Source: Eubacteriales bacterium
GTDB lineage: Bacteria; Bacillota; Clostridia; Oscillospirales; Oscillospiraceae
Assembly: GCA_030539285.1 (NCBI GenBank)
Contig: JAUNSH010000013.1
Span: 1-55,108, forward strand
Direction of reading: 5' to 3'
Length of the DNA stretch: 55,108 nucleotides
The translations under genes were made by a program, and so were the position numbers. The first letter of the stretch is position 1; every line of letters begins with the position of its first letter. Below are positions 1 through 3,044 of the stretch, piece by piece. The notes under the pieces are model-generated. The model saw only the letters and a list, made by a program, of their open reading frames with translations. It did not search any database and was not told where the DNA came from.

Positions 1-445
1 CTTTCCCATAGATATGCGAAAAGAATTCCACCGTTTGTTCCGCTTTTTGATCCATCAGTTCATTCAGCATAGTTTCCATGGAGCTGCCATCGCTGCGGCA
101 GAAAAATAAAGTGCAGTCGTCACGATGTTCGGTCAGCAGCCGAAAATATACCTGTTCTTCGGCGTTTATGGCGCAGAGAATGTCTTCCGGCTGCGCACTG
201 CGCTTTGCTTTTTCGTATTCTTCGGCAATGGGTGTAAACAAGGTCCTCATCGTCTCAAAAAAATCCTGAAGTAAACTGGCAAACAACGCGTCTTTGTTTT
301 TGTATCTTGTGTAGATCGCTCCGGTGGTGACTCCGGCTTTTTCAGCAATCTTGTGCAGAGAGGCTTTCTGAAAACCGTAAGCAAGAAACTCCGAATAGGC
401 AGCCTGAATGATCCCATCATCCAGGGAATGGTCCTTATTGGCCAT
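1..445 (-). CDS. TetR-family transcriptional repressor (C-terminus cut by window edge)
   Basis: The reverse-strand frame opens at an ATG at 445 with an SD-like GAGGAG just upstream and stays open to base 1, so about 148 residues are visible and the stop lies outside. The N-terminus (MANKDHSLDDGIIQAAYSEF) and the segment KIAEKAGVTTGAIYTRYKNK at about residues 28-47 are the classic TetR helix-turn-helix. The rest is the variable ligand-binding domain, so the inducer cannot be predicted. A long palindrome lies 23 bases upstream and is the probable operator, implying autoregulation. TetR genes often face an efflux gene; here the divergent side holds only a truncated recombinase. It probably belongs to the integrated element ending in cotJC. 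Confidence 0.85.
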   Translation of the reverse strand, partial: MANKDHSLDDGIIQAAYSEFLAYGFQKASLHKIAEKAGVTTGAIYTRYKNKDALFASLLQDFFETMRTLFTPIAEEYEKAKRSAQPEDILCAINAEEQVYFRLLTEHRDDCTLFFCRSDGSSMETMLNELMDQKAEQTVEFFSHIYGK

Positions 446-467
446 GTCGTCACTCCTCTGTGCCCAA

Positions 468-501
468 ATAATAATGCCATTATCGATAACGACATTATTA
501 T
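468..501. promoter_or_regulatory. 34-bp palindromic operator for the TetR repressor
   Basis: The arms AATAATGCCATTATC (470-484) and GATAACGACATTATT (485-499) are reverse complements at 13 of 15 positions, centred on TCGA, and the symmetry extends one pair further on each side beyond 469/500. Position (just upstream of the TetR start codon) and symmetry fit a TetR dimer-of-dimers operator. Binding itself is inferred. Confidence 0.7.
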
Positions 502-583
502 AGCGTTCTTTTTGCTGCTTGTCAATGCGAATTGCACACTCCTTTGCAAAAACATACCTTGACAAATCTCGTCTCAGAAAGCG

Positions 584-2047
584 ATGTTATTTCAGTATGC
601 GGCCAGCCAGGGGTGGGATGTATATGACGTGTACAGCGATGACGACTACGCAGGTTCTGACCGAAGTCGTCCTCAATTCAGGCGGTTGATAGCGGATGCT
701 GAAGCGCATAGGTTTGATATCATCCTCTGCAAGACCCAGTCGCGCTTTACCCGTGAGCTGGAACTGACGCAGAAGTATCTCCATAACCTTTTCCCGGCCT
801 GGGGTATCCGATTTGTCAGCATCGTTGACAATGTGGACACTGCGAACATGGGAAACAGGAAATCCCGTCAGATCAATGCCCTTGTCAATGAATGGTTTCT
901 GGAGGATATGTCCGACAATATTCGAAGTGTGCTGACAAACCGCCGCAAAAGTGGATTCCACATCGGTGCCTTTGCGCCATATGGATACAAAAAAGATCCG
1001 GAACAACAGGGACATCTGCTCATCGATGCGGAAGCTGCCGGAATCGTCCGTGAAATATTTTCCTTGTTTGCGGACGGCTATGGAAAATCCGTGATCGCGG
1101 ATATTCTCAATGACCGCCGTGTACCAAATCCGACGGAATACAAACGGCAGAAAGGATTTCGGTATCGGCAGCCGGAGAGAATGGCCAGTACCCAATGGAA
1201 ATATCCTACGATCACAGGAATTCTTACCAACGAAGTTTACATAGGAAACCTGGTTCAGGGCAGATACGGGAGCGATTCCTGTAAAACAAGTCAAAATAGG
1301 CCACGCCCGAAGGAAACGTGGATCCGGGTGGAGGGGACCCATGCGCCAATCATTGATAAGCAGCTTTGGGACCGGGTGCAGAAGAAGGTCCATTCCCACG
1401 CAAAGCCCTTTGCGGGCAACGGTAAGCTTCATTCGTTTTCCGGAAAGGTCATTTGTATGAATTGTGGTCGTTCTGTACACCCGCACAAAAATCATGGCAA
1501 TTATTATCTGCAATGCCATACACGGAAAACTTCGGATCCCCCATGCCCCGGCGCTTTTATCCCGGTTGCAGAACTGGAAAAAAACGTTCTGAGGGAGTTG
1601 AGAAAGCTCAATCGGGAACTGCTGGATTTGACAATACTGGAACGGGAGGTGGCGTTTGAAGCGGCATTGCACGCGAAGAAAGCAAAGCTGGAATCTGAGG
1701 TACGGGCTTGTCAGCAGAAAATCGATGACATGTCACTTGCGCTAAAGCAGCTGTATGTGGACAGGATAAAGGGCATCGTCCGTGTCAAAGCGTATTCCGA
1801 AATGGCAGAGGCTTTCCGAGCGGATAAATCCCGGTTCGAAGGCATGCTTCAGTCTGCCCTGGAAGGCATTCGTGATGTGGATTCCAGAATTGAAAGCGAG
1901 GACCATCGAAAGGAAAAAATGGCTCAGTATATTGACCCAACCCAGCTCACAAGAAGCATGGTGGAGATGCTGATCGATCATATTGAGATCGGCAGACGGG
2001 ATCAGAAAACCGGCAACGTCCCGGTTTCTATTTTTTGGAACTTCTGA
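584..2047 (+). CDS. large serine recombinase, N-terminally truncated
   Basis: The 487-residue frame holds the later part of a serine-recombinase catalytic domain (VYSDDDYAGSDRSRPQF, then TQSRFTRE with its conserved arginines), the recombinase domain (about 120-250), a zinc ribbon starting CMNCGRS near residue 290 with later Cys at QCH and PPCPG, and a C-terminal coiled coil (about 365-450). Full-length relatives begin 20-30 residues earlier with Y-x-R-x-S carrying the nucleophilic serine. Here the in-frame codons back to a TGA at 560-562 read only QISSQKA, matching the usual linker before the start, so the serine segment is gone and no upstream frame supplies it. The gene converges on interrupted cotJC and ends about 20 bases from the breakpoint. 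As it stands it should be catalytically inactive unless repaired or rearranged. Confidence 0.8.
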   Translation: MLFQYAASQGWDVYDVYSDDDYAGSDRSRPQFRRLIADAEAHRFDIILCKTQSRFTRELELTQKYLHNLFPAWGIRFVSIVDNVDTANMGNRKSRQINALVNEWFLEDMSDNIRSVLTNRRKSGFHIGAFAPYGYKKDPEQQGHLLIDAEAAGIVREIFSLFADGYGKSVIADILNDRRVPNPTEYKRQKGFRYRQPERMASTQWKYPTITGILTNEVYIGNLVQGRYGSDSCKTSQNRPRPKETWIRVEGTHAPIIDKQLWDRVQKKVHSHAKPFAGNGKLHSFSGKVICMNCGRSVHPHKNHGNYYLQCHTRKTSDPPCPGAFIPVAELEKNVLRELRKLNRELLDLTILEREVAFEAALHAKKAKLESEVRACQQKIDDMSLALKQLYVDRIKGIVRVKAYSEMAEAFRADKSRFEGMLQSALEGIRDVDSRIESEDHRKEKMAQYIDPTQLTRSMVEMLIDHIEIGRRDQKTGNVPVSIFWNF

Positions 2048-2478
2048 TGTGGTGAAAAATGAGACGCAGCATCTGCTGCAAGGTCCTCAACCAAGTCTGC
2101 CATGGGATCACCCTTCACCGCCATGCTGGCTGCGTTCCAGGGACTGCCGGAGGCGGCTGTGGGATACACGCCGATGGTATGGTCAACAAAATAAGGTGCG
2201 AAACCGGCTTCCTTGATCTGACTGTCGTTCAGGTTTCTCGTCAGCTGGTGAACGATGGCTCCAATCATTTCCAGATGCCCCAATTCTTCCGTGCCGATGT
2301 CCGTCAAAAGGCCCTTCAGTTCGTCAAAGGGCATAGAGTATCGCTGCGAAAGATAGCGAAGGGATGCTCCCAGTTCACCGTCAGGACCTCCATATTGAGA
2401 AATGATGATCGCCGCCAGCCGGGGATTGGTGTTTGCAATTTTTATGGGATATTGCAGTTTCTTGTCATATATAAACAT
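2002..2478 (-). pseudogene. cotJC: spore-coat protein CotJC, 3' end displaced by element insertion
   Basis: CotJC is a manganese-catalase-like (ferritin-fold) spore protein. The ATG at 2478 follows GGAGGCGTAATC, an excellent ribosome site, two bases after the cotJA-cotJB stop. Residues 1-138 match the family well: YDKKLQYP, ISQYGGPDGELGASLRYLSQ, GTEELGHLE with likely metal ligands, APYFVDH, KGDPMADLVEDLAADA. The frame then runs 20 unrelated residues antisense to the recombinase 3' end and stops at 2002. The usual last 50 or so residues (the fourth helix of the bundle) are missing. Either the gene is permanently broken or it is restored by excision of the element. Confidence 0.85.
2048..2080. 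other. probable attachment-site junction inside cotJC
   Basis: Reading cotJC from the right, family-like sequence runs through DLVEDLAADAA and then becomes unrelated sequence at about 2065, just beyond the recombinase stop codon at 2047. At 2066-2079 the arms GCAGCA and TGCTGC flank a central TC dinucleotide, the form expected of a serine-integrase core. The other half-site and the cotJC 3' end would lie left of the window, so the exact crossover is an inference. Confidence 0.5.
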
Positions 2479-2480
2479 GA

Positions 2481-2927
2481 TTACGCCTCCTTGTTCCCGC
2501 AATATTCCCAGGGCCATGGATCATCCAGCCATGTATATCCCTCGGCTTCGGATGACATCCCATGGTTCAGTGGGCCATGCTCCCGGGTATACAGCTGCCT
2601 GCATTTTTCGTACATCTGCTGGTATTCCCGGTACAGCTCCAGTGCTTCTGCATCATCCCGATGGGTGTCCAGATAAAGAGCCAGTTCCTGCACGGCAAAT
2701 CCAAGGGCTTGAAGCTCAGCCAGTGTTGTCGGCGGCAGCTCGTACTGGTTGACCATGCCCATAAAGGGAAGGTCCAGCCCCGGGAACAGCGTACCACGGA
2801 CCAGCCCTTTCTTCGCTTCATACCTGGTTGGATTTTCCGTCTGGAAGGGAACATAGGGATTCGCCAGAGGTGCCATGGCAGGTAAACGTCCGTCACGATA
2901 GGACGGTTCCTGATTTTGTCTGTCCAA
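2481..2927 (-). CDS. cotJA: CotJA-CotJB fusion spore-coat protein
   Basis: The 148-residue protein joins two families normally encoded by neighbouring genes. Residues about 25-60 (PYVPFQTENPTRYEAKKGLV, then RGTLFPGLDLPF) are CotJA. Residues about 68-148 (LAELQALGFAVQELALYLDT, then a Pro-Trp-rich tail with WLDDPWPWEY) are CotJB. There is no stop or frameshift between them. The start is a TTG at 2927: AGGAGG lies eight bases upstream, and the nearby ATG at 2934 is out of frame. It is the first gene of the cotJ operon and cotJC follows two bases later. In Bacillus the cotJ operon is expressed in the mother cell from sigma-E, and its products enter the inner coat together. Confidence 0.82.
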   Translation of the reverse strand: MDRQNQEPSYRDGRLPAMAPLANPYVPFQTENPTRYEAKKGLVRGTLFPGLDLPFMGMVNQYELPPTTLAELQALGFAVQELALYLDTHRDDAEALELYREYQQMYEKCRQLYTREHGPLNHGMSSEAEGYTWLDDPWPWEYCGNKEA

Positions 2928-2971
2928 TTTCCATACCTCCTGAAAGATAGAGTCGGATTTTCGTCCGTGTC

Positions 2972-3000
2972 ATACTATGTTTTCTTTTTGCGGAATGTTC
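2972..3000 (-). promoter_or_regulatory. possible sigma-E promoter for cotJ
   Basis: On the reverse strand GAACATT (3000-2994) and CATAGTAT (2979-2972) are separated by 14 bases, resembling the sigma-E pattern with CATACAnT at -10. The -35 match is weak. It lies 45 bases upstream of the cotJ start. Confidence 0.3.
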
Positions 3001-3044
3001 AGAAAACGCCTGACCCGGCATAAAAATTCCAGGAGGTGGTGGGT

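Follow-up and report, generated by a model that had tools for sequence, protein, structure and literature searches.

Serine recombinase elements split the spore coat gene cotJC at six sites in Clostridia and are probably excised in the mother cell

Mobile elements have been reported in the sporulation genes sigK, spsM, spoVFB, spoVR, gerE, and yabG, and cotJC is not among the interrupted genes in the available parts of these sources (PMC4191935, PMC5595907, and PMC10747680). The skin element in C. difficile sigK carries the large serine recombinase (LSR) CD1231 and the recombination directionality factor (RDF) CD1234 (PMC5025042), and gin in gerE of Bacillus cereus ATCC10987 is described with GirC, GirX, a 42-aa RDF, and a 9-bp core (PMC5595907). 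Here, we analyzed a 55,108-nt contig of an Eubacteriales gut bacterium (Oscillospiraceae; GCA_030539285.1, JAUNSH010000013.1), which is called the window or C25 below and belongs to a metagenome-assembled genome (MAG; G000) of 98 contigs and 84% completeness; G, C, and L numbers are our handles for genomes, contigs, and loci. The window contains an insertion inside the coding region of cotJC, a mother-cell gene, at codon 136; both gene pieces were found, and the inserted element brings a site-specific recombinase of its own. An interruption of cotJC by an element was not reported anywhere in the literature searched, which left out most subscription papers and all preprints. The mechanism considered below has already been proposed for the known elements; the differences here lie in which gene is hit, in how many sites and lineages are involved, and in the presence of several elements per gene.

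A specialized cell type also rebuilds the genes split by the fdxN and nifD elements. These elements of heterocyst-forming cyanobacteria, named in PMC4191935, concern other bacteria and other genes, and the likeness to cotJC is one of analogy: LSR2, the complete recombinase of our element, scored 102 bits against the XisF model, below its cut-off of 375. Like skin, the cotJC elements are LSR elements in a mother-cell gene with a short common core, and RDF-controlled excision would be as in skin (PMC5025042, available part); unlike skin, they hit their gene at six sites, several at once, are known from sequence, and have RDF-like proteins that match no family searched. The window element resembles gin in that it is seemingly not a phage, carries several serine recombinase genes and a small RDF-like gene, and has a short core. 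Gin, as described in the part of the source available, is the one element in its gene, and its target is gerE (PMC5595907). SP-beta in spsM (PMC4191935) and yin in yabG (PMC10747680) are prophage-type, as one cotJC element described below appears to be, but the accessible text gives one site for each, and yin was reported to be unique to one strain, whereas cotJC elements are widespread. In C. difficile R20291, phage phi027 is reported as lying beside CDR20291_1465, a CotJC-like catalase gene, and not as splitting it (PMC11222575, part consulted).

The cotJC frame of the window is intact for 407 nt, covering codons 1–135 and two bases of codon 136, and downstream of position 2072 it runs into foreign sequence (the full profile has 198 positions; coordinates in Table 1). 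A preliminary description of the window had given 138 normal codons followed by unrelated sequence; the split is real, but the intact frame is about 136 codons long, and 138 counts element sequence. The 3′ end was expected outside the window, and a search for an in-frame fragment with a shared core had been proposed; the missing 63 codons were indeed found in the same MAG, on C43, in the same orientation and in frame, with the 10-bp core TTGCAGCAGA in common. Joining the two halves in frame at TTGCAGCAGA gives a 198-aa CotJC that scores 410 bits, and because the ends of C25 and C43 face each other when read from the N- and C-terminal pieces, the pieces are in direct orientation. The convergent LSR described at the junction is confirmed by its Resolvase, Recombinase, and Zn-ribbon domains, and its open reading frame (ORF) ends 24 bp away; what had been called an LSR gene is, however, 5′ truncated in the window. 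That this recombinase (LSR1) is itself broken, and that a second, complete recombinase (LSR2) lies on C43, had gone unmentioned. The element measures at least 10 kb and holds the two tandem LSRs, a small RDF-like gene, and polysaccharide genes.

Intact and split relatives both exist, as emerged from the comparison that the preliminary description had advised. PF05067, which also picks up Mn-catalase paralogues, matched in 96 of 119 genomes (own one included); matches were re-sorted with a cotJC-specific profile and fetched loci, 10 paralogue loci were set apart by profile score, and L121, L122, L133, and L111 were handled as copies of other loci. Our count of the 73 genomes of the genus (own one included) gave 29 with split and 21 with full-length cotJC (17 fetched and confirmed and four from the listing alone), three with pieces at a contig edge (G007, G038, and G053), three with a paralogue only, and 17 without a match. 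G007, G038, G053, and G074 were left out of the split count, as their pieces touch or overlap each other or break off where a contig ends. The start of G038:C10 and the end of G007:C16 coincide exactly with the site-B core, perhaps because alleles with and without an element were mixed in the sample. Six genomes were searched for a site-B LSR: G038, G007, G029, and G074 gave no match, and G053 and G043 had weaker relatives.

Named genomes were scanned with cotJC codons 1–49, a query that every site except D leaves whole; the best 80 loci among the matches listed comprised 47 full-length genes, 31 cut at a known site, and two at a contig edge only. Cultured carriers are Pseudoflavonifractor sp. 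An44 (L128), Colidextribacter sp. OB.20 (L173), [Clostridium] viride DSM 6836 (L147), and Papillibacter cinnamivorans DSM 12816 (L162). An order-wide sample had a match in 181 of 217 genomes, and among the matches listed at least 87 genomes matched from position 1 to at least 190, while at least 47 lacked such a copy and had a piece starting or ending near a site (19 of the 47 were fetched). In the class-wide scan, 103 of 147 genomes had a match, paralogues included, and the fetched loci showed the same sites in other orders, including three pieces on one contig in G412. Pieces end near codons 30–33 (site D), 50–53 (A′), 62–63 (A), 65–66 (A2), 136 (B), and about 176 (C). The splits are not an assembly effect because the single-contig genomes G265 and G218 show both pieces in one locus.

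Thirty-six elements were spanned end to end inside one locus, with sizes of 2.2–16.7 kb, bounded by the 20-kb stretches used; 35 of them hold one LSR of at least 300 residues, at most 300 nt from an edge in 28, so LSRs lie beside cotJC more often than by chance; among these elements, L158 and L163 have one insertion in common. A larger element in G019 (46 kb, across L060, L235, L236, and L061) has two LSRs. Its very large genes look by eye like nonribosomal peptide synthetases and ATP-binding cassette transporters. We built an LSR tree from 67 rows (66 genes, one fetched twice) that had been picked for lying within 700 nt of a cotJC edge, with SH-aLRT support only. Clades followed the sites (B, 18 rows; A, 22; D, 10; A2, eight; C, seven), and two A′ rows (L080 and L051) nest inside the C clade, which looks like a switch of target by one lineage within cotJC; one G172 row labeled A′ through a loose edge falls in the A clade. 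Among unselected viral contigs, eight had an LSR at least 57% identical to the site-B query, with cotJC within 3.4 kb in six and a contig edge in two, whereas cotJC accompanied none of three LSRs below 50% identity. With A and A2 LSR queries, cotJC pieces were present at 16 of 160 loci (the best 80 each). LSRs from different host families can be closely similar (G052, G057, G110, G111, and G224), so the elements move between species. Outside cotJC, three tandem LSR genes were seen in G000 at C82:77256-82125 (L439).

The most fragmented gene, in G258, has five profile matches that span 83 kb of a single contig and follow one another in order on the same strand. Pieces 2 and 3 are separated by a gap with LSRs of different clades (A and A2) at its two ends; a single element there was therefore set aside, and the gap should hold two elements with a tiny piece between them. 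A stricter pattern for that piece had no match inside the gap, and a looser one had a single plus-strand match, GGTACAGAAGAAC at 228456, which we infer to be an 8-nt piece of cotJC. All six pieces joined at their cores give a gap-free match to positions 1–197 (336 bits), and the five elements (D, A, A2, B, and C) each have an LSR at the edge. By eye, the A element (G258:C1:213012-228456) carries CRISPR-Cas genes with an array, and the A2 element (G258:C1:228469-262174) carries phage genes and reads as a prophage. Four cotJC pieces lie on one contig in G106 and over several contigs in G122, G246, and G184; in these three, the last piece matched weakly (E 0.004 to 0.03) and was fetched for G122 only.

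By sequence comparison, split cotJC genes are under purifying selection. No stop and no lost codon occurred in 33 split genes in the codons compared downstream of the cut (140–176 for site B; 70–131 and 140–176 for the A types), where pieces had been found as open frames, which favors open ones. Values of pN/pS were 0.115 in split versus 0.129 in full-length genes for site B and 0.232 versus 0.227 for the A types, and median omega for the A types was 0.140 (nine pairs) versus 0.172 (364 pairs). Two loci from different species, L158 and L163, have the A and C insertions in common over 17 kb at 90% identity. Element A was most likely present in their ancestor because the synonymous divergence (dS) of its genes (0.95 and 0.59) compares with that of host radA (0.55), cwlD (0.46), and cotJB (0.73); rplJ gave 0.11. 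The LSR of the C element has a dS of 0.196, and this insertion may be younger or have been exchanged. Codons 65–176 of this cotJC pair, which have no start of their own, differ by 26 synonymous and no nonsynonymous changes, with a chance of about 3e-17 (a hand calculation from implied site counts, with no transition bias); codons 1–63 differ by 18 and one. A site-A′ pair (L079 and L126) is 81% identical over 5 kb, and the site-B pairs that align across the junction come from different host families.

Three families of small proteins are encoded on the same strand just upstream of the LSRs of sites B, A, and C with A′. They had 19, 22, and six matches (the last in five loci), with an LSR directly downstream in 16, 17, and six, respectively; L121 duplicates L049 in the site-B family. 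Placed where an RDF could sit, these genes are candidate RDFs, and searches with one of their proteins in Pfam and with five in NCBIfam and PHROGs gave no match. CATA marks the −10 element of promoters read by sigma E and sigma K. Of 40 upstream regions of RDF-like genes, 18 contained a sigma E/K −10 pattern that had been defined in advance, versus 4.4 in shuffles. CATA lies 20–50 nt before the start in 29 of 40 RDF-like genes (12/16 for B, 15/20 for A, and 2/4 for C) versus 59 of 380 other genes in these loci (p = 1.2e-13). At 51–110 nt, the counts were 14/40 versus 79/380 (p = 0.04), and TATAAT occurred in 1/40 versus 18/380. The RDF-like candidate of the window element has CATA at −38. Upstream of cotJB, CATA was present at −30 to −80 in 108 of 132 loci, a count with no matched control, mostly at −50 to −60 and thus further out than in the small genes. 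The promoter of the RDF-like genes may be of the mother-cell-specific type.

We propose that a site-specific mobile element, one of many LSR elements that use cotJC, docks in codon 136. The gene would stay split in vegetative cells and the forespore, until a mother-cell sporulation sigma factor switched on the small RDF-like gene together with the LSR that follows it. Recombination of the two core copies by the LSR would then release the element as a circle and restore cotJC in frame; because the mother cell dies, the lineage would always keep the element. The sequences themselves show that cotJC is split, that the pieces have a common core and join in frame, that LSRs are present, that the arrangement recurs with LSR lineages sorted by site, and that selection acts on split genes. 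The RDF role of the small gene, the mother-cell specificity of its promoter, and excision itself are deduced; the evidence suggests that the pieces are rejoined only in the doomed spore-building cell. Skin-like elements excised in the mother cell, with cotJC restored, are thus the probable explanation. The preliminary description had left restoration by excision and a broken gene side by side, and selection and the mother-cell-type boxes favor regulated excision.

Several results weigh against this explanation. Patterns for the excised form (attB and attP) gave no match in the MAG, the link between C25 and C43 is itself deduced with the element middle unassembled, and LSR1 is broken, so in the window element the complete LSR2 would have to do the work. 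The window LSR also has a match to DUF4368, a domain linked to multi-target LSRs in the available part of PMC10083194, and the 2.3-kb site-B insertion at L107:10489-12730 has no detectable recombinase; both cotJC pieces are open there. In the single-contig genomes G172 and G325, same-strand cotJC pieces lie 674 and 157 kb apart, distances that do not fit simple excision (G408 was dropped as a further case, its N-terminal piece being a doubtful match). Median omega at site B was higher in split (0.124; 13 pairs) than in full-length genes (0.085; 429 pairs), the split-gene values of the two site types come from only 13 and nine pairs, and the age-controlled selection result concerns a site-A insertion, not site B. 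As for the promoters, the −20 to −50 window for CATA was picked after the sequences had been viewed, the upstream regions of L049, L052, and L246 are near copies, LSR genes alone gave no clear sporulation promoter signal (7/65 versus 2.9), and none of the RDF-like families found belongs to the D or A2 LSRs.

The missing excised form, the LSR-free L107 element, and the broken window LSR would also be expected if LSR elements simply targeted a conserved sequence of a dispensable cotJC, with split copies recent and decaying, and C. difficile cotCB and cotD mutants had no significant coat defect in the part of the study available (PMC11222575). Decay is at odds with the lack of stops and lost codons in 33 split genes, with 26 synonymous and no nonsynonymous changes after an old common insertion, with a six-piece gene that still joins gap-free, and with the boxes on RDF-like genes, and we regard simple disruption as quite unlikely. 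Alternatively, the elements might leave and re-enter at a low rate, as temperate phages or mobilizable islands do, with selection acting through element-free cells. The prophage-like A2 element of G258, the movement of elements indicated by close LSRs in different host families, and the lack of a boxed RDF-like gene for the D and A2 families fit such non-developmental excision, but it explains neither why RDF-like genes should carry the CATA box in three separate LSR families nor why one gene can have up to five elements at once; it seems unlikely. That each piece is a working protein in its own right, or that joining takes place at the RNA or protein level, is highly improbable: N-terminal pieces do reach stop codons soon after the junction, but downstream pieces start inside the protein, the putative 8-nt middle piece lies between two cores, and inserts of 2–50 kb with LSRs are unlike introns or inteins.

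Coordinates of the split genes and of the features of the window element are collected in Table 1.

Table 1. Positions of the features described; contig C25 (the window) unless another is given.
Feature	Position	Strand	Basis or remark
cotJC 5′ piece	2072..2478	−	profile positions 1–137
10-bp core TTGCAGCAGA at cotJC/element junction	2072..2081	−	same core at C43 8107–8116
cotJC 3′ piece	C43:8107-8306	+	profile positions 132–198
cotJB, host gene upstream of cotJC in the cotJ operon	2481..2927	−	position and family knowledge
Upstream region of cotJ genes with CATA box	2928..3035	−	sequence
LSR1 3′ part, ~33 N-terminal residues absent	563..2047 (ORF 563–2044, stop at 2047)	+	profile start 33
LSR1 fitting 5′ part	C43 1–165	−	profile match
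Left part of putative further insert inside LSR1, with 5′ part of TetR-family gene	1..562		two contig ends
TetR-family gene, cut by contig edge	2–565	−	domain search
LSR2, complete (Resolvase, Recombinase, Zn-ribbon)	C43 322–1878	−	domain search
49-residue gene just upstream of LSR2	C43 2017–2166	−	RDF-like candidate
Far-apart cotJC pieces	G172:C1:198614 and 873263; G325:C1:2541492 and 2698408	same strand	
Split sporulation sigma gene	G000 contig C61 21526–21729 and 32388–32855 (L438)	same strand	10.7 kb apart

The gene next to cotJC is taken to be cotJB from its position and from what is known of the family. LSR1 seems to be interrupted near codon 33 by an insert nested within it, to which the TetR-family gene belongs, since its profile match starts there and a fitting 5′ end is found on C43; its catalytic serine presumably falls in the residues absent from the window part. 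The TetR gene noted further out in the preliminary description is present. Neither the TetR stretch nor the first 70 bases of C43 matched elsewhere among the fetched loci, and the same tandem LSR pair stands unbroken beside cotJC in G019 and G059. C43 also carries a five-gene run with glycosyltransferase, pyruvyltransferase, and FrhB domains. No phage structural gene was found in Pfam among the five large C43 genes, the LSRs, and the TetR gene, the element middle being unassembled.

Another sporulation gene of the same genome is also split. A sigma gene on C61, which we take to be sigK from its sequence and both pieces of which score below the TIGR02846 cut-off, has an LSR and a 54-residue gene directly before its 3′ piece, and a second LSR abuts the 3′ end of the remaining gene, which breaks off at ISRSYVS. 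We read this as a skin-like LSR element with a probable second split at the 3′ end. Among 30 genomes (own one included), nearly the whole sigK query matched in 16, and others had pieces cut near 54–68 or 103–117.

With somewhat less confidence than for excision in the mother cell, we consider it likely that cotJC is a docking gene common to mobile DNA in Clostridia, used by at least five LSR lineages with their own sites and mother-cell-controlled excision. The gene would be left in up to six pieces by elements with prophage, CRISPR-Cas, or biosynthetic cargo and rebuilt when several deletions took place together in a terminal cell, which would make it a bacterial parallel to genome editing in ciliates. 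In the parts of the literature available, only a few sporulation genes are known to undergo developmental repair by excision, and each has one element; the coat gene cotJC alone has six sites used by separate recombinase lineages across a bacterial class, once with five elements together. A testable rule would be that mobile DNA can settle safely in genes needed only by the terminal mother cell, provided that it leaves on cue. These elements offer LSRs, RDF candidates, and att sites in many natural combinations. The fragmented look of cotJC and sigK in gut genomes may be explained in this way, and sporulation ability may be misjudged where such genes are split.

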